From assembly GCF_947492715.1 (NCBI RefSeq), contig NZ_CANLNS010000003.1, positions 333,363-397,362 of the forward strand: a stretch of DNA of 64,000 bases, given 5' to 3'. A program made the position numbers and the translations under genes. This stretch comes from an uncultured Psychroserpens sp. GTDB taxonomy: Bacteria; Bacteroidota; Bacteroidia; Flavobacteriales; Flavobacteriaceae. The notes under the pieces are model-generated. The model ran no database searches, was not told the origin of the DNA, and saw nothing but the letters and a program-made list of their open reading frames with translations. This document shows, in pieces, positions 1 to 9,167 of the stretch; positions within the stretch are counted from its first letter, which is position 1; the number at the start of each line of letters is the position of its first letter.

Positions 1-1572
1 ATAATAATTGTTAATCCATGCACCATTTGGCAAATCTATGGTTGTTGCATATTCTGAAAATAAACGCTCGGTATTGGCGTTCGTGATTTCTAAATCAATC
101 CAGCTCGTCCATGTATTATCAACAGTATTATAGGTGCTTGATGATGAAACATTGGTGATGCTTACATCAGTATTTCTTATGTTTTCTGGCATAATACCAA
201 AAGATTCTTTGTTAAAAAAGACACGCTCTATGGTATTTATTTTGCCATCAGATAACGTTAAATTATCAAGAACAATCCAATTAAAAAATTTAGACAAATA
301 TGGTTTCTGACTCGAAGAAAAGAAATCATCATTTCGATCTTTATTATGACGAACCACATTTAATGTGTTTTGCAGCGATTGTTTGTCAATAGCATAACGC
401 TCAGAATAATTTGGACTATAGAGATAATCTAACGCCTCATGTAAAACCACTCTGTCTTTGGTGTATGATGCTGTAATGCATGCTGGAATGACTAAGAAAC
501 CTAAAAGGGCGAAAGTTATGAGAAGAGCTTTCGAGAAGTGTGCTTTTAGAAAGTTGTAATCTGAGGTTAATTCTTGGATGTGAATAACAAAAAGTACCAA
601 TGGCGTTAGCATTAAAAACCCTACACCAATGGCAATAATAGCAAATACCGAAAGTGGTAAATAGGGTAAGAATACAATAAAAAAGTACAGCGTATAGGCA
701 AATGTAATGCTACGCGCAATAAATAAAAAAAGCCTTTGAGTTGTATTTGAGCCGCTAGGTAAGCAAATTAAAATACCATTTACAAGTGCCAAAACATAAA
801 ACCAGTAATGACTGAAATCTCCAAAAATACCAGTATGTGTACCGCTAAAATGGTCAATTAGAAATCCACTGTTAACGGCAAGTCCCAATAAAGGGAAAAG
901 AATGGCTATGGGTATTTTCCATAAGAACTGATATTTTTTCCAAGCCTTTCCTTTTTTTGTGGCTAGAATATAGATGCCTCGAATTAAGAAGAATAAGAAT
1001 AAAATAACAGCTACAATAGATAAAACGACCATCACGTGTGATCCAAACCCCGAAGTTGTAAAATTCCATAGTGGTAAAATAATTTGGAAGAAAAGATAGC
1101 AAATTATGGGAATGGCTACTGCAGCCAAAATATTCTGCCAAGCTTTATAATCTTTATCTTTTGATGTTAATTTAATGACAATAATAAACAAGGAATGTGC
1201 AAACGTAGGCATTAAAAAAGTACCAACATACAATAGTATGTCTCCAGACAACATCCATCGTGGGATACTCCAAGGCAATATGTCTTGGGTATATAAACTA
1301 TAGATGTATATATAAGCGATATAAACAACCAAACTTATATAAGCATAATACATGGAGATATTTTGCTTCCTAACAATACATGTAATTGTATATCCTAAAT
1401 GTAAAAGGGTTAAGATAATTAAGGTTAGGCCAAACCCTTTCCACAACGATAGATTTTCTTCAGACAATAAGGTTTTAATAATGCTAAAATCGCTATATAC
1501 AATTAGTATTAGAAGCACTACTGGAAGTGTGTTTATAGCTAATAGCCATTTTGGGTTAAGCAAATTTCGCAT
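1..1572 (-). CDS. MSEP-CTERM-type membrane protein, presumed exosortase K target (3' end cut by window)
   Basis: This gene is not in the ORF track because it runs off the left edge. Reading the minus strand from ATG at 1572 gives 524 uninterrupted codons to base 1, beginning MRNLLNPKWLLAINTLPVV. The first roughly 400 residues hold about ten hydrophobic segments. The last part turns soluble and contains a VIT-like stretch (WIDLEITNANTERLFSEYA). As I recall it, the MSEP-CTERM family (about 900 residues) is nearly always encoded next to exosortase K and is its only known target; the C-terminal sorting signal would lie outside this window. The start overlaps the upstream xrtK stop by 17 nt, so the two are probably translationally coupled. 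The neighbour and the N-terminal sequence support the call; the sorting signal itself cannot be seen. Confidence 0.72.
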   Translation of the reverse strand, partial: MRNLLNPKWLLAINTLPVVLLILIVYSDFSIIKTLLSEENLSLWKGFGLTLIILTLLHLGYTITCIVRKQNISMYYAYISLVVYIAYIYIYSLYTQDILPWSIPRWMLSGDILLYVGTFLMPTFAHSLFIIVIKLTSKDKDYKAWQNILAAVAIPIICYLFFQIILPLWNFTTSGFGSHVMVVLSIVAVILFLFFLIRGIYILATKKGKAWKKYQFLWKIPIAILFPLLGLAVNSGFLIDHFSGTHTGIFGDFSHYWFYVLALVNGILICLPSGSNTTQRLFLFIARSITFAYTLYFFIVFLPYLPLSVFAIIAIGVGFLMLTPLVLFVIHIQELTSDYNFLKAHFSKALLITFALLGFLVIPACITASYTKDRVVLHEALDYLYSPNYSERYAIDKQSLQNTLNVVRHNKDRNDDFFSSSQKPYLSKFFNWIVLDNLTLSDGKINTIERVFFNKESFGIMPENIRNTDVSITNVSSSSTYNTVDNTWTSWIDLEITNANTERLFSEYATTIDLPNGAWINNYY

Positions 1573-2074
1573 GACGTATATTGGATTTAGAAATAAAATG
1601 ATTGGTTAGTAAATAGAACAGAATTAAAAACGTGAGGTATACAAAAACACCTTGGGCCTGATGCATCCATGTATAGTCAAAACTTGTGTTTTTTTCAATG
1701 AAAATTGATATAAGTATTCTAGATATATTTGCAAATAAGGTTAAGAGATAAGTAACTGCAAAAGCGATAGGAAAGACAATTATGTTTTCAAAAAGAGTGC
1801 GTGTATGTTTTAATAATGAAAACATGAAAAGCATAAAGCTAATAAGCCAGAAATTCACTCCAGAGCAGGATTTGTCTATAATGATGTTTAAATTTTCAAA
1901 ATAAAATCCAATAGCGCTTGTGTAAGTGGCATTCTGATTTGCAATGGTTTCGACGACACCATTAATAGGTTTTAGCATAAATAAAACCATATCATTATCT
2001 GCATGAGCATACATGAATTTTAGAATCACCACTAAAACAAAAGCAATAAGGTAATACATACTATTTTTTATCAT
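1556..2074 (-). CDS. xrtK: Exosortase K-like protein-sorting transpeptidase
   Basis: An integral membrane protein of 172 residues with about five hydrophobic segments. It carries the exosortase Cys-Arg-His set: Cys70 in DKSCSGVNFW, Arg119 in NISRILIS and His138 in MHQAQGVF. Exosortases cut short C-terminal signals (PEP-CTERM and relatives) at the membrane and transfer the protein to an acceptor. The small size and the adjacent MSEP-CTERM-like gene fit the XrtK subtype of Bacteroidota. The start overlaps the upstream DUF1361 gene by 14 nt within a compact operon. Family membership is well supported; the K subtype rests on context. Confidence 0.8.
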   Translation of the reverse strand: MIKNSMYYLIAFVLVVILKFMYAHADNDMVLFMLKPINGVVETIANQNATYTSAIGFYFENLNIIIDKSCSGVNFWLISFMLFMFSLLKHTRTLFENIIVFPIAFAVTYLLTLFANISRILISIFIEKNTSFDYTWMHQAQGVFVYLTFLILFYLLTNHFISKSNIRHAKFA

Positions 2075-2738
2075 CTGCGAGATCTATTTTTGGTATTGTA
2101 AATGCTTTGAGCATCCAATAAGAAATGGCTAAAAAGGAAGCAAAAGTTAATGTAAAAATCCAAGCTTCGGTATTAGGTTCCAATATAATTCTGAAAATAT
2201 CCGAGAATATTTGCAATGGTTCGTTTATAATTTCCCATGAATTATAGCGTAAAAAACGCCCTAAGTATATACCAAAGGCAGTGAGACCAAAAATACTAAG
2301 CATCAAAGGAAAGATATACCTTGATGGCACATACTGTTTTATACGCTTTTCCATATCTGACAGTGAAAGGAAAAATAAAATCAATCCGTTAAATGCGAAA
2401 GATAGAATCACAAGAATATCTAACCACATTAAATGCGATTTAGAGTTTATGAGGTGCAGTAAATCGGTAACAATATAAGGTGCGTTTGGTAAGAAGAGCA
2501 ACCAAATGCTAAACCATATTACGAATACCAATTTGTTTGTTTTAGGAGTACTTATAAGCCCAATTGTAATGGCATATGGAATGATGGCTAAGAATAAATT
2601 CCAGACTAAAAATAATAAATAAAAAGACTGATGCATTTTCATTCTAATCATGAGTAAAACGATACTCAAAGCCATTGAGATTGTGAGTAAAGACAAGATC
2701 TTAAATCGGGTAAAAATGAGTGTTTTTATAGATTCCAT
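2061..2738 (-). CDS. DUF1361 family integral membrane protein
   Basis: A 225-residue protein with about six membrane spans. The diagnostic stretch WLLFLPNAPYIVTDLLHL is typical of DUF1361. No enzymatic activity is established for the family. It overlaps xrtK by 14 nt and the upstream DUF2809 gene by 13 nt, so it belongs to the exosortase operon. Whether it helps exosortase sorting is unknown; co-transcription is the only evidence. Confidence 0.75.
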   Translation of the reverse strand: MESIKTLIFTRFKILSLLTISMALSIVLLMIRMKMHQSFYLLFLVWNLFLAIIPYAITIGLISTPKTNKLVFVIWFSIWLLFLPNAPYIVTDLLHLINSKSHLMWLDILVILSFAFNGLILFFLSLSDMEKRIKQYVPSRYIFPLMLSIFGLTAFGIYLGRFLRYNSWEIINEPLQIFSDIFRIILEPNTEAWIFTLTFASFLAISYWMLKAFTIPKIDLADDKK

Positions 2739-3109
2739 GAGTTTTTAATATTTATGTCGATTAATAAAATGACTAGAATGCCCAAGGTATAGGCAATAAG
2801 ATCGGTAACTTCAAAAGTGCTACCAAGTATGATAACTGCTAATTCACTATGCCTCAAGTTTAAATAATCTAACAGATTAAAAAGTTGTAAAAACTCTATG
2901 GTATAAGCAATAAAGAATACGACAATAGCGATATAGATGGGTTTGGTTTGAATGAAACTGCGGAAAAAACAATAGATCAAAATGACCACCAAGAAATCTC
3001 CAAAGGTGTGTCTTATAAAACCTTCAGATAAAAATATTGCTATACATACTTCTACAAGAAATAGCAACAGACTGGATGCAAAAAAGGATTTGTTGAATTT
3101 GATGGTCAT
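2726..3109 (-). CDS. DUF2809 family membrane protein
   Basis: A 127-residue protein with four predicted spans. The central motif GDFLVVILIYCFFRSF, followed by YTIEFLQLFNLLDYLNLR and a late TLGILVILLID helix, matches the DUF2809 pattern, a VanZ-like small membrane fold of unknown role. Its start overlaps the sanA-like stop by 4 nt (ATGA type), showing translational coupling. Function unknown. Confidence 0.7.
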   Translation of the reverse strand: MTIKFNKSFFASSLLLFLVEVCIAIFLSEGFIRHTFGDFLVVILIYCFFRSFIQTKPIYIAIVVFFIAYTIEFLQLFNLLDYLNLRHSELAVIILGSTFEVTDLIAYTLGILVILLIDINIKNSWNL

Positions 3110-3735
3110 TTGATTTCTATTTGTTGTCCTAAAAATTTCGGTTCTACATTAAACAATACATCCATTGATGCTTTTGCTCGTGCGAGATATTCTCTGAGCT
3201 GTACTTTAAGTCCGTAACGCCCTTGAACATTTTTAGCATTAAATGCAACGGCATTAATCTCATTATGTTTGGCGAGATAAATGGCACGCTCGTTATGAAA
3301 TTGCTGAGATATAATTGTTATAGAATCCTGACCAAAAATTGCTTTGGCACGTATGACAGAGTCTAATGTTCTGAACCCAGCATAATCTAAAAATATTTTG
3401 TTTTCGGGAATACCTCTGGCAATCAAATCGGTTTTAAATGTTGTAGGTTCGTCATAACTTTTACTTCCGTTATCACCACTTATCAGTATATATTCAATTT
3501 TACCAGACTTATATAGCGCTACGGCAGCATTAATTCTATAACTGTAATACAAGTTGATATTTCCGTTAGATAAAAACTTAGCTGTCCCAAGAAGTAAACC
3601 AACTTTATTTTTTGGTATAGAGCTTGTCGACTTATATATATAATCTTTAGCTTGATAACTTACCATATAGTTGGTGATAATGAGACCAAATAAGAGAAAT
3701 ACAGCGAGGAGCGCTAAAAGTTTAAGTTTCTTCAT
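3106..3735 (-). CDS. SanA/YdcF-type DUF218 envelope protein
   Basis: A 209-residue protein with one N-terminal membrane helix (about residues 5-25) followed by a DUF218 domain. Seen motifs are VGLLLGTAK at the first strand, ILISGDNGSKSYDEP and SQQFHNERAIYLA. SanA of enteric bacteria is a DUF218 protein linked to envelope permeability and vancomycin exclusion at high temperature. This protein has the SanA arrangement (anchor plus a single DUF218 domain). Located in the exosortase operon with 4-nt spacing to its upstream neighbour. An envelope role is inferred from the family. Confidence 0.75.
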   Translation of the reverse strand: MKKLKLLALLAVFLLFGLIITNYMVSYQAKDYIYKSTSSIPKNKVGLLLGTAKFLSNGNINLYYSYRINAAVALYKSGKIEYILISGDNGSKSYDEPTTFKTDLIARGIPENKIFLDYAGFRTLDSVIRAKAIFGQDSITIISQQFHNERAIYLAKHNEINAVAFNAKNVQGRYGLKVQLREYLARAKASMDVLFNVEPKFLGQQIEIK

Positions 3736-3739
3736 AATA

Positions 3740-4030
3740 TTAAAATAAGTTATAGTAAATCACCACATAGAAATAACCATCTGCGATGGGTATATTAGTG
3801 ATTAAAATGCCTATAGATTTTAAAGTTTTTAGTTTATTGTCTTTAATAATTAAGTATCCAATCAAAACCAAGAGGATCAGACTATTGATCACTATAGCAA
3901 ATAACAGATAGTATAGGTCAATTATTGCAATCCCAGATTCGGTTTTAAAACAAAGTTGTAGTATTAAAAGTAAGGTTCCAATACTAAAAAATGTTAATGC
4001 TGCTTTTGTCACAAATTGTAGTCTATCCAT
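3740..4030 (-). CDS. Small hypothetical membrane protein
   Basis: A 96-residue protein with three hydrophobic segments (about residues 9-28, 36-62 and 73-92) and no recognised motif. It sits between the sanA-like and Coq4-like genes with gaps of 4 nt and 1 nt, so it is almost certainly co-translated with them. Not recognised as a named family. Confidence 0.6.
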   Translation of the reverse strand: MDRLQFVTKAALTFFSIGTLLLILQLCFKTESGIAIIDLYYLLFAIVINSLILLVLIGYLIIKDNKLKTLKSIGILITNIPIADGYFYVVIYYNLF

Positions 4031-4031
4031 T

Positions 4032-4523
4032 TTAATTGAGTATAAGAGTTTTACGCTGTGATCTCGAAAAAATAGCCTGTCTTAAGTCGTTAATATCTAC
4101 ATGAAGCAGGTGTTTGTAATCAAAGTGATGAAACGTGTTAGCCTGTTTTCCAATATGATAAGAGCGGTAGTAATAGTTGTAATAATCGGGTAGTATAACA
4201 ATGCCTAAAATCATGGCACCATAGAGGTAGGGACTACGTTTTCCGTTACCAAAACATAAGCATTGTAAAGCAATTTCATCTTCTACTGTTACGCCATAGC
4301 CTGTTAAGGTGTGATAGGCATCATGGCGTTCTACTTTGGCAATGAGTTCAAAATCGTTAGTGTCTAAAAACTCACCTAGATGTCTACCAAATGAAGATTT
4401 AGGATAATTGAGGAGTTCTGCCCTATAAATACCCCAGGCTTCATGATTTTTAAATAGTTTGGTGTAAAGGTTTTGAGAGTGCTCAAATAACCATTCTATA
4501 AATTGTTTTCGTATGTTTTTCAT
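4032..4523 (-). CDS. Coq4-like metal-binding protein
   Basis: A 163-residue protein carrying the Coq4 zinc-binding signature HDxxH-x11-E exactly: His67, Asp68, His71 and Glu83 (RHDAYHTLTGYGVTVEDEIA). Coq4 acts in ubiquinone biosynthesis in eukaryotes and some proteobacteria. Flavobacteria make menaquinone rather than ubiquinone, so the substrate here is probably different. It overlaps its upstream neighbour by 4 nt and is part of the exosortase operon. The fold assignment is good; the function is unknown. Confidence 0.7.
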   Translation of the reverse strand: MKNIRKQFIEWLFEHSQNLYTKLFKNHEAWGIYRAELLNYPKSSFGRHLGEFLDTNDFELIAKVERHDAYHTLTGYGVTVEDEIALQCLCFGNGKRSPYLYGAMILGIVILPDYYNYYYRSYHIGKQANTFHHFDYKHLLHVDINDLRQAIFSRSQRKTLILN

Positions 4524-4894
4524 ACCTGTTTGTTTTTAGCAAACCAAATCCATGATTGGCTTGTGGTTATAAAAGCGGACGAAAAAAATGCGATGCTGAA
4601 AATGCTAAAATTGGTAGATATGATTCCAAATGCCGCAATCCCAAAAGTAAAAATAGCATAGTAGGGGAAATACCTTTTATAAACTTGTGTTTTGCTTAAA
4701 CCGTTTTTTTCTGTTATCCAAAACACAGAGCAAATTGTACTTAAAATAACTAGCGACGCTATAAAAAATATGGGTATAAAAGACACCAATACAAGAAGAA
4801 CCATATTGCTTTCTTCAAAGCCTAATCCAGTGATTATCCAAAAGACAAGCGCTGCCAAAACACAAGATTTTGCAAGGTTATTTCGAATATTCAT
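4520..4894 (-). CDS. Small hypothetical membrane protein
   Basis: A 124-residue protein with four hydrophobic segments (about residues 10-25, 28-57, 74-94 and 96-112). No recognisable motif. It overlaps the Coq4-like gene by 4 nt and starts 1 nt after the DUF4173 stop, so it is translated as part of that operon. A partner role for the Coq4-like protein is possible but only from coupling. Confidence 0.6.
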   Translation of the reverse strand: MNIRNNLAKSCVLAALVFWIITGLGFEESNMVLLVLVSFIPIFFIASLVILSTICSVFWITEKNGLSKTQVYKRYFPYYAIFTFGIAAFGIISTNFSIFSIAFFSSAFITTSQSWIWFAKNKQV

Positions 4895-4895
4895 A

Positions 4896-6293
4896 TTATT
4901 TAGTTCTAGTATTATGGTCTAATGCAATGTTGTCATAACTCCACTCTTGCCAATCCCGCTGTCTCACCGTACTTAGATAATTCCGGTATTTATTTTCGAT
5001 TCTAAGTCTATTGGCATTTGAAATGATGATATCATCTTTTTTGTTGTGGAGTAGAACAGCATTCCTATTTGTGAGTTTTATGAGATAATCAATGTCATAT
5101 GCTTTTGCCTTTGTAAGATTATAATTGGTGATGGTATAATCCCAATTTATGGCACTTAAAATAACCAACAGAGCAAAGGCTATTTGTGCATTTTTTCGAA
5201 ACAAGAAAATGAGGTTTTTTATATTCAAGACTTTAATAAATGTCGTAACCAGGCCAATAAGGGTAAGGAAAATATAAACATGTACACCAATACGTTTATA
5301 GGTAAGTCCAAATGAACTAATATAATTTTGATTTTTGATAGCAATAAGTGCAATAAGGACAATGTTTAAGATAATCCAGAGGTAAGTAACGGCTTTAAGG
5401 TTTTTATTATTGACGTAAAAATTGAGATCGCCTCTAAAGAAATATAGAATGATAATTATGGCAATAATAATAGAAGCGATAAGCGTATTAATGCCATTGT
5501 GTACTTGATAAGAAAGGGTAGATGCTTTAGTGATATCATGCGTTTTTAAGTACAGAATATCGGTAATGATATATATTACAATTAAAAGATTTAGCAATCC
5601 AAGCAATAAGGTTCCAAGTTGTTTTTCCTTTTTTAATTTTTCTTCGGAAATGTGCTCTGATTTGTTTAAATGGTTAGTTGTTTTTAAATCGGCCAAGGTT
5701 GCCTGTTCTACCTGAATAGGTTTAGAAATGTTGCTGAATAAATAATAGCCTAAAACAGAAAATAGTACCCATTGTATATTGATAAAGTTGAAATTAATTT
5801 GAGAGACTAAATTATTGAACATTGGATTTCCATTTTTATAGAGCATTACAAAAACGATAATAAACACCAACGGAATACCAACAAGTTTAGTGAGGTGAAT
5901 CCAATCTATTTCTTTTTTAGGTTTAACTTGTTCTTTCGTCTGGCTAGCTTCAAAATTTCTGTGAAAAAATCCAGCAATAGAAGTGTAAAGACCATTTAGC
6001 CAATAGATATACACCGAAGTATCACGTTGTGAAACTACACCTATTAAGGTGAAAAATGCGGCGCAATTGGCAATAATTGAAAGGTAAGAGTGTTGCATGA
6101 ATACAATTACAGCCGTTACCAAATAAATAAACGTATGCAGTATCGTTTGTTTGTTTTTAAAGGCGCTTAGATTGTAAAATGCCAATACACCAATCGTTAT
6201 TATAGAAAAAATGGAAAGATTTAGTCCTATATGCTTTTCATAAAAAAGTGTACTGAATGCTAAGGAGGCAATAATGGTTATTATATGTTTCAT
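4896..6293 (-). CDS. DUF4173-type polytopic membrane protein
   Basis: A 465-residue protein with about twelve membrane spans and a short soluble C-terminus ending in the family-like RDWQEWSYDNIALD segment. DUF4173/DUF4153 proteins are Bacteroidota membrane proteins of unknown function often encoded with small winged-helix regulators. It is the first gene of a nine-gene operon that ends in the exosortase K target. A perfect 17-bp palindrome starts 17 nt upstream of the ATG, so transcription of the whole operon is probably controlled there. Confidence 0.7.
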   Translation of the reverse strand: MKHIITIIASLAFSTLFYEKHIGLNLSIFSIITIGVLAFYNLSAFKNKQTILHTFIYLVTAVIVFMQHSYLSIIANCAAFFTLIGVVSQRDTSVYIYWLNGLYTSIAGFFHRNFEASQTKEQVKPKKEIDWIHLTKLVGIPLVFIIVFVMLYKNGNPMFNNLVSQINFNFINIQWVLFSVLGYYLFSNISKPIQVEQATLADLKTTNHLNKSEHISEEKLKKEKQLGTLLLGLLNLLIVIYIITDILYLKTHDITKASTLSYQVHNGINTLIASIIIAIIIILYFFRGDLNFYVNNKNLKAVTYLWIILNIVLIALIAIKNQNYISSFGLTYKRIGVHVYIFLTLIGLVTTFIKVLNIKNLIFLFRKNAQIAFALLVILSAINWDYTITNYNLTKAKAYDIDYLIKLTNRNAVLLHNKKDDIIISNANRLRIENKYRNYLSTVRQRDWQEWSYDNIALDHNTRTK

Positions 6294-6305: not shown

Positions 6306-6327
6306 AAAGTACTTTGAATTTCAAAGT
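6306..6327 (-). promoter_or_regulatory. Candidate operator, DUF4173-exosortase operon
   Basis: ACTTTGAATTTCAAAGT at 6311-6327 is a perfect 8-1-8 inverted repeat; AAAGT at 6306-6310 adds a third half-site in inverted contact. The same element occurs before two neighbouring genes. On the minus strand the half AAACTTTG could serve as a one-mismatch -7 box (TAnnTTTG), so a bound protein would block the promoter. Confidence 0.65.
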
Positions 6328-6352
6328 TTAAGATTAAAAAAAATGACGTTAT

Positions 6353-7117
6353 CTAGGCGTTTATATGGTTTAATGATTTGATTTCTTTTTTATAATTTGA
6401 TGGCAATAGCATGTTTTTAAGTAGGGCGTCTAGCCTTATGGATCTACATAATTTATATAGATAAATAAGAGGTCTTAATAGTGATGCTTTTCTCTTATTT
6501 AAATAAGCATTAACCATTTTTGGGCAAATGAGTCGCTGAGACTCTAGTAACAGTTTATATCTCATAAACCCCAAATGTTTCCTATACTGTTTATAGAGAT
6601 CTTTCGTATAGCTGCTATTATGCAAATTCTCCGTAATATGTAATGAGCGCATGTGTTTAAAATGCACATAATCTTTGGGTAATTCTTGTATGTTCATGCG
6701 CTTTCCTACCTTATAAAAGACCTTATAAACCTCTTCCTTTTCTAGAATATCAAGTGGTCGTTCTAAAATTTCGAAAGATCGAATCGAATAGTCTATGAGC
6801 ATGAACAATACATCTTTATAAGCCCAATTTGGAATGGCTTGCCCGCGTTGTTGTTCTATAGCATGATGTATGCTTGTTATGGTATCAATAGCTTTGTGCG
6901 CCTTTTCTTTTTCAGAAAAAACAATTTTTCGGGCGTAAGAAACCGTAGAAAATAGACGTCCTAAGGGATCCTTGGGAAGTTGTCCGGTAAAATAGAGCCA
7001 ATCTACGGCTTTATTGAGGGCAAACTCGGCAGAAGCACCTGCAAAAACCAAGAGTATGGTGTCGCTTTTGCCCCAAATTTCTCTAACTATTGAGTTTTTA
7101 TCTACAAAGTATGCCAT
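6353..7117 (-). CDS. DUF2236 / MpaB-like oxygenase family protein
   Basis: A 254-residue protein matching the DUF2236 pattern: SIVREIWGKSDTILLVFAGA near the N-terminus, the GRLFSTVSYARKIVFSEKEK segment with the following SIHHAI helix, and FMLIDYSIRSFEIL. The family includes MpaB and the rubber oxygenase Lcp, which bind haem b, but many bacterial members have no known substrate. It is a single-gene unit between the DUF4173 operon and the winged-helix regulator, with its own copy of the palindrome 17 nt before the start. Oxygenase activity is inferred, not shown by residues I can verify. Confidence 0.65.
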   Translation of the reverse strand: MAYFVDKNSIVREIWGKSDTILLVFAGASAEFALNKAVDWLYFTGQLPKDPLGRLFSTVSYARKIVFSEKEKAHKAIDTITSIHHAIEQQRGQAIPNWAYKDVLFMLIDYSIRSFEILERPLDILEKEEVYKVFYKVGKRMNIQELPKDYVHFKHMRSLHITENLHNSSYTKDLYKQYRKHLGFMRYKLLLESQRLICPKMVNAYLNKRKASLLRPLIYLYKLCRSIRLDALLKNMLLPSNYKKEIKSLNHINA

Positions 7118-7134
7118 TTTGTTTGTGTTTTTTT

Positions 7135-7151
7135 ACTTTGAAATTCAAAGT
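7135..7151 (-). promoter_or_regulatory. Candidate operator, DUF2236 gene
   Basis: ACTTTGAAATTCAAAGT is a perfect 8-1-8 palindrome lying 17 nt upstream of the DUF2236 start codon (7117). Same element as at 6311-6327 and 8145-8161. Confidence 0.65.
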
Positions 7152-7167
7152 AGATTTATAAATTTTT

Positions 7168-7461
7168 TTATTGTTTATTAATTAATTTTTCGAGCGCTTC
7201 TATGTGTTTTTTAAATTCGGCTTTACCTAATTTAGTGGCAGAGTAGCGCGTATTTGGTTTTCTACCAATAAATTGTTTTTCCACTTTTATATAATCTGCT
7301 TTTTCTAAAGCTTTTGTATGACTTGCAAGGTTTCCATCTGTTGCGCCTAGTAGGTTTTTTAGCATATTGAAATCTGCATATTCATTAACCATTAAAATAG
7401 ACATAATGCCTAATCTAATGCGATGGTCAAATGCTTTGTTTATGTTGTTAATTATACTCAC
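7168..7461 (-). CDS. Winged-helix transcriptional regulator (HTH_34 type)
   Basis: A small DNA-binding protein of 97 residues when started at GTG 7461 (MSIINNINKAFDHRIRLGIM). The ORF track extends to a TTG at 7503, but members of this family normally begin a few residues before the NKAFxxRIRLGIMSxL helix, and a candidate -7 box (TAACTTTG, 7493-7486) lies between the two starts. The recognition segment is NLLGATDGNLASHTKALEKA, followed by the wing GRKPNTRYSATKLGK. Such regulators are MarR/ArsR-like dimers usually encoded with membrane proteins. Three palindromes and one half-site nearby make it the likely local regulator. Confidence 0.78.
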   Translation of the reverse strand: MSIINNINKAFDHRIRLGIMSILMVNEYADFNMLKNLLGATDGNLASHTKALEKADYIKVEKQFIGRKPNTRYSATKLGKAEFKKHIEALEKLINKQ

Positions 7462-7483
7462 GCTTCTGGTTTCAGATTCATAA

Positions 7484-7493
7484 TTCAAAGTTA
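7484..7493 (-). promoter_or_regulatory. Operator half-site overlapping candidate -7 box of the regulator gene
   Basis: On the minus strand the sequence reads ATAACTTTGAAT. TAACTTTG matches the Bacteroidota -7 consensus TAnnTTTG, and its ACTTTGAA portion equals one half of the neighbouring palindromes. This fits weak autoregulation. No -33 TTG at good spacing was found. Confidence 0.4.
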
Positions 7494-7506
7494 TGCAAAG
7501 CAAAAC

Positions 7507-8136
7507 TTATTTCATTCTATCGTACTTAAAATGCATAATAGTTCCATAGAAAATATGACAAACTCCAAATCCTAAGGCCCAAAAAAACAAGCCATAGCCT
7601 AAAAAGTAAGTAGAGATTAATCCAATAATAATCATTGTGATTCCTAAATATCTAATATATCCTAAAGTATACTTGCTGGCATTAACGCAAGCTAAGCCGT
7701 AAAAAATCATCGTTAGAGGAGCAACAAGGGCGTATACATTTTTTTCTAATAGCAACATGATAAAGATGCCTCCAGTAATCAACGGGATTAAAAAATTAAT
7801 AATCAGCCGTTTTGATGTTGAATCCCACATACTTTCGTTTTGCTTCTTGGCTTTTGCATAGCTTAGAACAATACCTGTAAGTATAGACATGACAACCACA
7901 GTGATAGCGACCAGAAAAATGTACATCGTGCTTTCCTCAGTTATGAGTAAGGTTCTGTATCCGTCAACAGTTACCATGTTGTCTGCGTAAATGATGCCAT
8001 AGCCTATGTAAGCCCCTATCAATGCATAGATACCTGCGAGTATTCCAGAGAGACCACTAATGGATAAAAAACGAGATGATTTGCTCATCATAGTTTTAAT
8101 ATCACTTATATCTTTAAGATAATCTTTTGATTCCAT
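7507..8136 (-). CDS. Six-helix membrane protein upstream of winged-helix regulator
   Basis: A 209-residue protein with a short soluble N-terminus (about 25 residues) and roughly six membrane spans. No catalytic motif seen. It is the first gene of a pair with the winged-helix regulator (46 nt apart using the GTG start). Its start codon lies only 8 nt from a copy of the palindrome, so it is likely a regulated target. Not assignable to a named function. Confidence 0.6.
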   Translation of the reverse strand: MESKDYLKDISDIKTMMSKSSRFLSISGLSGILAGIYALIGAYIGYGIIYADNMVTVDGYRTLLITEESTMYIFLVAITVVVMSILTGIVLSYAKAKKQNESMWDSTSKRLIINFLIPLITGGIFIMLLLEKNVYALVAPLTMIFYGLACVNASKYTLGYIRYLGITMIIIGLISTYFLGYGLFFWALGFGVCHIFYGTIMHFKYDRMK

Positions 8137-8139
8137 AAT

Positions 8140-8161
8140 AAAGTACTTTGAAATACAAAGT
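8140..8161 (-). promoter_or_regulatory. Candidate operator, membrane protein-regulator pair
   Basis: ACTTTGAAATACAAAGT at 8145-8161 is the same palindrome with one mismatched arm pair. It is preceded, as at 6306, by AAAGT, giving the identical composite AAAGTACTTTGAA. It begins 4 nt upstream of the start codon at 8136. Confidence 0.6.
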
Positions 8162-8186: not shown

Positions 8187-9167
8187 CTATTTTTCTATTT
8201 TAAAATCTAGAATCTTCTCGTTTTCAAAATAAAGACTCAGCACATCTGAAGAGGAGGTGTTTGATTTGTAATTTAGCGAAGCCACATAAAGATTGTGTTT
8301 GTTTTTTTTGAAGTGCAGCTCTTTAGAGTGTTTTTTGTTTTCAAATTTGTAATAAATTTTTGAAGCCTTGGCTTTTTCTTTAAACACAATTGTAATGGTA
8401 TTGTTTTTCTCTTTCAATTCGATAAGGCCTTTTTGATTATTAGCGATTCTAACGCCACTTTCAAAATATTTAGAGTAAAATACTGGTGTTTCAAAGAATG
8501 ACTTTATACTTATGGGATGCGATACAAATTGTAAATGTTGATATTGGGGAAGGTGAGAACTTAAAAATTCATAAGGATCTGTGAAAAAGTAAAAATCATT
8601 AAAGCGCTGAATCCAAGATTTTGTTTTCATATTTTCATAACCTGTAGACCATGTGACGTCTATAAGTTGCCATTTATTGTTGATTTTTACAGCATTCCAA
8701 GCATGATTCTTTATGTTTCGAGTTGTGTTAATTTCGTTCGTAGACAATTTAGTAATGCCTTTTATAATTTGGGATTGAATTCCAGAGCGTAAACAGAGTT
8801 CGTTAAACAACGTACTAAATTCTATACACATTGCTTTTTTATACGTTAATATTCTTTTTACCAATTTCGCGTTGCGCTGCTTTTGAATACTTCTATTGAG
8901 CCGCTCAGAGTCAAAAGTGATTCGCATTTCAGGTGGATTAAAACTATAGTATCGATTAAGATCATAAGTAATATTATGTGCTATCCAAGTATAATAGGCT
9001 CTTACCTTTTCTTCTTCAGTATTGAAGTCTTTGGAAACCCTGTCAACCAATACTTCAAGAGTACCATAATTAGGGTATTGTTTTACTTTGTTATCTATCC
9101 ATTCATAGTTTTGCGAATAGACAAAAGTGGTCATCAACAACGATAATGTTAAAAAAATGTATCTCAT
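8187..9167 (-). CDS. Secreted transglutaminase-like protein
   Basis: A 326-residue protein with a signal peptide (MRYIFLTLSLLMTTFVYSQ). The transglutaminase-like core has a full papain-type triad: Cys114 in KKAMCIEFS, His155 in NHAWNAV and Asp170 in WQLIDVTWSTGY. These bacterial proteins are usually protease-like or structural; substrates are unknown. The C-terminal 150 residues look like a beta-rich domain. The gene is monocistronic and divergent from the small membrane protein at 9217. Confidence 0.8.
   Translation of the reverse strand: MRYIFLTLSLLMTTFVYSQNYEWIDNKVKQYPNYGTLEVLVDRVSKDFNTEEEKVRAYYTWIAHNITYDLNRYYSFNPPEMRITFDSERLNRSIQKQRNAKLVKRILTYKKAMCIEFSTLFNELCLRSGIQSQIIKGITKLSTNEINTTRNIKNHAWNAVKINNKWQLIDVTWSTGYENMKTKSWIQRFNDFYFFTDPYEFLSSHLPQYQHLQFVSHPISIKSFFETPVFYSKYFESGVRIANNQKGLIELKEKNNTITIVFKEKAKASKIYYKFENKKHSKELHFKKNKHNLYVASLNYKSNTSSSDVLSLYFENEKILDFKIEK

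Follow-up and report, generated by a model that had tools for sequence, protein, structure and literature searches.

The window, by which we mean the whole 64,000-nucleotide stretch of DNA that was analysed, carries three minus-strand transcription units near one edge, each preceded by a copy of a 17-bp palindrome. The first unit encodes a 209-aa membrane protein, here called MEM (7507..8136), and a winged-helix regulator of the HTH_34 family (PF13601; 7168..7461; Pfam E 3.8e-30). The second comprises a gene for a DUF2236/MPAB_Lcp_cat protein (PF09995 by Pfam; 6353..7117), a family that also lies under the palindrome at loci L088, L119, L218 and L389. The third is a nine-gene operon. It begins with a DUF4153 membrane protein (PF13687 by Pfam; 4896..6293) and a 124-aa hydrophobic protein (4520..4894) whose orthologues come after DUF4153 in relatives, and continues with a Coq4-like protein (PF05019 by Pfam; 4032..4523), a translated ORF for a 96-aa hydrophobic protein (3740..4030), a SanA-like DUF218 protein (PF02698 by profile match; 3106..3735), a DUF2809 protein (PF10990 by Pfam; 2726..3109) and a DUF1361 protein (PF07099 by profile match; 2061..2738). 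It ends with exosortase K, XrtK (TIGR04287, E 1.4e-42; 1556..2074), and its presumed substrate, an MSEP-CTERM protein that is cut by the window edge (TIGR04286, E 6.5e-149; 1..1572). An earlier reading made from the sequence alone had described a nine-gene operon running from DUF4173 to MSEP; the nine genes and the MSEP end stand, but Pfam assigns the first gene to DUF4153. The matches to the XrtK and MSEP-CTERM models adjoin, which identifies an exosortase K system. A gene for a transglutaminase-like protein (8187-9167) is the next gene upstream of the MEM-HTH_34 pair, and relatives have it in that place at L097, L138, L142, L375, L377 and L378.

The three palindrome copies lie within 1.9 kb of each other on the minus strand. 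The copies before the nine-gene operon (O3, 6311-6327) and before the DUF2236 gene (O2, 7135-7151) match ACTTTGAAWTTCAAAGT exactly, and each is 17 nt from its ATG. The third copy, before the MEM-HTH_34 pair (O1, 8145-8161), reads ACTTTGTATTTCAAAGT on the minus strand, differs from ACTTTGAAWTTCAAAGT by one mismatch and is 8 nt from the ATG. An extra AAAGT is found at 6306-6310 and 8140-8144; read on the minus strand, it places ACTTT (6306..6310) next to O3 and ACTTTA (8139..8144) next to O1, both in direct orientation, while O2 has no such addition. The sequence-only reading had reported all of this (a full palindrome before three minus-strand units, 8-17 nt from the start codons, with AAAGT at two sites and no other full copy in 64 kb), and each point was borne out. 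A window scan allowing up to three mismatches found ACTTTGAAWTTCAAAGT nowhere beyond the three sites.

We then extended the scan to the whole source genome (4.2 Mb, 41 contigs), a check the earlier reading had proposed, and copies were few. Exact matches to ACTTTGAAWTTCAAAGT are confined to O2 and O3, one-mismatch copies to O1 and C7:30489, and seven further copies have two mismatches; the reversed pattern, used as a control, gave five genome matches at up to two mismatches. With the spacer left free, ACTTTGN5CAAAGT occurs at exactly three genome sites, all in the window region. Chance copies were considered as a reading of the palindrome and rejected. The one-mismatch copy at C7:30489-30505 (L004:1501) falls inside a hypothetical-protein ORF and is probably due to chance.

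The regulator scores 104.3 bits against PF13601 (gathering cut-off 27), covers model positions 1-80 of 80 and is the only close HTH_34 member in the source genome. Its likely start is the GTG at 7461 rather than the TTG at 7503, because orthologues start there. In the structural model (pLDDT 94.6) the recognition helix begins at D42 of TDGNLASH, and D42, G43, L45 and H48 of this helix are invariant in 35 regulators from Bacteroidota and other phyla. No such operator was seen with distant HTH_34 paralogues, which have TAGNLSVQ instead of TDGNLASH. The nearest solved structure is PH1061 (1ub9; TM 0.88), which has the fold of the ArsR/MarR-type winged-helix repressors, and these share with the system described here a dimer-type palindrome one turn apart and predicted self-control. 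Unlike them, the regulator reaches only 20.3 bits against the NCBIfam ArsR/SmtB metalloregulator model NF033788 (cut-off 55), and a search of its 97-aa core for metal- or thiol-sensing Cys found none. The operator sequence was not found in the open-access full text searched. A single ACTTTG half-site between MEM and the regulator (7486-7491, minus strand) had been placed by the sequence-only reading at the regulator gene's own candidate -7; it is not conserved, with a counterpart in only 7 of 77 loci, and is probably incidental.

The structural model of MEM, which is of high confidence (pLDDT 91), shows six TM helices preceded by a helix at the N-terminus. Ten of its 25 invariant or near-invariant residues fall between the N-terminus and the first part of TM1, and its K/R-rich segments fit a cytosolic N-terminus. 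A search of the fold against the PDB gave no match below E 0.001. Of 77 family loci, 76 have MEM ahead of HTH_34, and it is presumably co-transcribed with the regulator as its partner. The near-obligate pairing and the conserved N-terminal helix lead us to read MEM as a sensor or tether through which disturbance of the inner membrane or envelope would relieve repression; we hold this role, which rests on operon conservation and topology, with roughly even confidence. In Capnocytophaga (L225:1991) the site and MEM are kept and no HTH_34 gene adjoins.

The earlier reading had suggested a scan of related flavobacteria. Presence of the regulator and of the palindrome was compared across a family set of 151 genomes, sampled at close to one per genus: both are present in 72, HTH_34 alone in five, the palindrome alone in two and neither in 72, counts for which Fisher statistics ignore kinship. 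In the five genomes with HTH_34 alone the site is present but its spacer differs, and in the two palindrome-only genomes no gene start lies beside the copies. Where the regulator is truncated (G122/L151), the sites are lost. The palindrome is thus kept where the regulator is kept and absent where it is absent or truncated. The earlier reading came through those of its refuting conditions that are open to computation.

In stretches of up to 20 kb around the 77 family regulators, a site precedes MEM in 76 loci, at 8-9 nt from the MEM ATG in 65 of these; in the one locus without MEM (L144), it stands directly before HTH_34. In 74 of the 77 loci there is another site after HTH_34, mostly 5-20 nt from the next gene, which encodes CreD (34 sites), a Coq4-like protein (18), DUF4153 (10), a 95-aa membrane protein (4) or DUF2236 (3). 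The core arrangement is site, six-TM MEM, HTH_34, second site and an envelope operon headed by CreD, DUF4153, a Coq4-like protein or DUF2236. As anticipated, sites lie almost solely upstream of orthologues of the genes named in the window.

The sites also accompany predicted target genes located elsewhere, which, together with the co-occurrence, points to a probable regulon of the winged-helix protein. XrtK exceeds its model cut-off in 10 of 400 family genomes, and xrtK-MSEP is under an operator in all eight that have both XrtK and a regulator with sites. In six of the eight, xrtK-MSEP closes the operon at the regulator locus or lies close to its last genes. In G033 and G900 it is on another contig with its own site copy close upstream (the G900 regulator is located in L383), and this backs the earlier inclusion of the exosortase operon in the regulon. 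The remaining two XrtK genomes (G083, G879) have no site near xrtK, and G083 has no regulator match. The XrtN system is found under the operator as well: in two Flavobacterium species (L184:4445, L223:3881) a site lies 20-24 nt before its VIT protein, followed by XrtN, and in Mucilaginibacter dorajii (L192:6925) the VIT protein comes directly after HTH_34 and the second operator. Because xrtK-MSEP and XrtN-VIT are repeatedly found under the predicted operator, the exosortase link is recurrent, although xrtK itself is rare. Further unlinked sites precede DUF2236 (G008) and a small membrane protein (G024, G144). The term 'local' used for this regulon in the sequence-only reading holds for the three units in the window and does not hold as a restriction, given the unlinked targets and the larger set in relatives. 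Two Flavobacterium loci remote from the regulator (L190:3200, tested, and L191:7068, alike) have the operator in front of a gene for a YiiX-type permuted papain-like amidase.

To define the full element, we aligned 152 family sites, 76 before MEM and 76 downstream. Both halves of the palindrome are near-invariant and conserved alike. Immediately after the 17 bp comes ACTTT, a third half-site in direct orientation, conserved at 92-100% per base over the 152 sites (at +1..+5, 94-100% in MEM sites and 89-94% in downstream sites); it has no mirror counterpart on the palindrome's other side. This conserved, directional element accounts for the extra AAAGT at O1 and O3, and the copy at O3 is kept in downstream sites of relatives. 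The third half-site is probably part of the operator, since in MEM operons it is too near the ATG to be a -7 box. Its conservation was judged from the family loci, as the pattern used in the scan described below already contained ACTTT. A T-tract, TTTTTTTA, lies 7-14 bp upstream of the palindrome at L074 and most other downstream-type sites and not at MEM sites; it is also present at L190 and L191, whose sites have no HTH_34 gene upstream.

The association extends beyond the family. Among 346 Bacteroidota genomes, the palindrome accompanies 97 of 109 close regulators, against 6 of 77 distant HTH_34 homologues; stray copies are present in 27 of the 142 genomes that lack the regulator. When 85,462 GTDB species genomes were scanned with ACTTTGN5CAAAGTACTTT, at least 117 stretches were returned. 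Among the 117 matches listed, 80 hold the regulator, 78 of those within 1.2 kb (median 32 bp), and the palindrome is mostly within 5-30 nt of start codons. The Aminicenantes, Chloroflexota and Campylobacterota matches are each the genome's only palindrome and lie upstream of a membrane protein-HTH_34 pair. In an Acidobacteriota sample, HTH_34 is within 1.5 kb at 10 of 27 palindrome loci; two of these 10 lead into creD, with L349 confirmed in full by Pfam. None of 29 palindrome loci in a Campylobacterota phylum sample is near HTH_34 besides L230, and the others therefore look like chance or coding repeats. Across these comparisons, the linkage of the predicted operator to the regulator, its position, the gene content and the conservation are read from the sequences themselves.

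We next considered where the operator lies relative to promoters. In five non-Bacteroidota MEM promoters (L298, L337, L341, L176 and L230), 11-12 of 12 sigma70 bases are matched and the -10 hexamer is just before the palindrome or overlaps it; the same comparison at five other MEM-type or upstream sites gave no clear promoter. Since the operator sits at -10/+1 in consensus sigma70 promoters, its position points to a putative repressor. In the family, MEM promoters are enriched for TTG at -24 (27 of 76, background 1.6) and have an invariant T at -1, which fits -33/-7 boxes with the first half-site within the -7. The Bacteroidota sigma-A promoter has TTG at -33 and TAnnTTTG at -7, about 20 nt apart. 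The earlier suggestion that the ACTTTG half forms a -7 TAnnTTTG box holds in part: MEM sites would fit the -33/-7 arrangement, but exact TAnnTTTG is present at 16 of 76 MEM sites and 10 of 76 downstream sites, and the -33 TTG was not found at the 76 downstream sites. The -7 box spans -12 to -5 (PMC9723704). With the box so placed, the start of Bacteroidota MEM transcripts is predicted near position 11 of the palindrome, and because this predicted start lies within the palindrome, autorepression by steric blocking is favoured.

We propose that the HTH_34 protein encoded at 7168-7461 has as its operator ACTTTG-N5-CAAAGT, usually with the third ACTTT. An HTH_34 dimer would sit on the two half-sites, one helical turn apart, and cover the core promoter from -7/-10 to +1. 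Judged on sequence, it very probably binds there and holds down transcription of the MEM-HTH_34 operon, its own, and of a few envelope operons. Predicted targets are DUF2236 and the DUF4153-to-XrtK/MSEP operon in the source genome, and CreD, Coq4-like, YiiX-type and XrtN operons in relatives. Six-TM MEM would lift this repression in response to a disturbed inner membrane or envelope. That the palindrome is the operator of an HTH_34 repressor of envelope operons is, in our view, highly probable.

Activator sites normally lie upstream of -35. The operator here is at -10/+1 in the five consensus sigma70 promoters, and most MEM operons have it 8-9 nt before their ATG, which makes it unlikely that HTH_34 binds the palindrome but activates, perhaps once released by MEM, as in LytTR regulatory systems. 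In favour of activation, a membrane partner in the operon and autoregulation are common to LytTR systems (PMC6193735), and the Bacteroidota promoter assignment rests on sequence.

It is very unlikely that another, unlinked factor binds the site and that the adjacency of HTH_34 is incidental. The Capnocytophaga locus, with a site and MEM and no neighbouring HTH_34, would suit such a factor, but regulator and site are found linked again and again in Bacteroidota and Acidobacteriota and also in single genomes from other phyla, and a truncated or distant regulator goes with loss of the palindrome. We give hardly any credence to a 5' leader RNA hairpin controlling translation beside the start codon. 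The palindrome can fold (-3.6 to -4.2 kcal/mol) and among the matches listed is mostly close to start codons; against this, its half-sites are near-invariant (a one-mismatch scan could miss compensatory double changes), its presence tracks the gene for a DNA-binding protein, and in several promoters the hairpin could not form because the start would fall inside the palindrome. Equally improbable is a palindrome-looking promoter element (-7 TAnnTTTG) that is no regulator site, for although the first half and flanking T resemble TAnnTTTG and sometimes match it exactly, both half-sites are conserved alike, copies number about 2-3 per genome and depend on the regulator gene, and the same site accompanies classical -35/-10 promoters in other phyla.

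In kind, the proposed HTH_34 system would be a repressor regulon in which a winged-helix protein has a membrane partner, and the nearest described logic is that of the LytTR regulatory systems. HdrRM and BrsRM likewise combine a DNA-binding regulator with a multi-TM protein in a small two-gene operon; LytTR systems are also widespread, with a mostly unknown signal, and are autoregulated, as MEM-HTH_34 is predicted to be (PMC6193735). The regulator here, however, is an HTH_34 winged helix and not a LytTR domain, and its operator is a palindrome at -10/+1, whereas LytTR sites are direct repeats just upstream of -35. MEM-HTH_34 thus differs in regulator family, site type and site position and probably in sign, with predicted repression in place of positive feedback, and it has several further target operons. 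CreBC-CreD (PMC4689548) has CreD, a main target in relatives, in common with this system. Here, control is predicted to lie with HTH_34 and its operator and not with a two-component pair, and CreD is outside the window. HrcA-CIRCE is also a repressor with an inverted-repeat operator near the promoter, conserved across phyla, but its regulator is unrelated, its operator differs and it controls chaperone genes rather than envelope genes.

The sequence-only reading knew of no described regulon of this kind, and we found none: open-access full text held no description of the operator or of a PF13601/HTH_34 regulon. Searches there gave nothing relevant for exosortase K/MSEP or for CreD in Bacteroidetes, nothing on the MEM-HTH_34 system under DUF4153, DUF4173 or PH1061, and background papers only for exosortase or flavobacterial regulons. 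This analysis assigns a likely regulator and operator to a set of genes comprising creD, those for exosortases K and N and their presumed substrates, and Coq4-like, DUF2236 and DUF4153 genes, for whose control in Bacteroidota open-access full text yielded no description. A site so short, rare and close to invariant could help in annotating members of the regulon and in probing the stress that requires exosortase sorting.

CreD keeps envelope integrity in Stenotrophomonas, where its loss damages the envelope (PMC4689548), and the targets therefore suggest envelope maintenance. More tentatively, MEM/HTH_34 may be a repressor pair found across phyla, with one operator that is ancient and has hardly changed; the pair may sense the state of the inner membrane and turn on genes for envelope maintenance, CreD among them, and in Bacteroidota control XrtK-MSEP and XrtN-VIT as well. 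If MEM is a sensor, the pair would add a sensory module outside the two-component and ECF systems, and if an envelope-sensing pair does control XrtK and XrtN, exosortase sorting would be part of an envelope-stress response.

Other genes were seen at sites outside the family. In Acidobacteriota L344, L345 and L346, a uppS-like gene (undecaprenyl diphosphate synthase) comes next after the regulator or operator. In a Planctomycetota MAG (L173:794-810) and a Puia MAG (L179:705), the site precedes members of a common family that reads like a B12-binding radical SAM protein.
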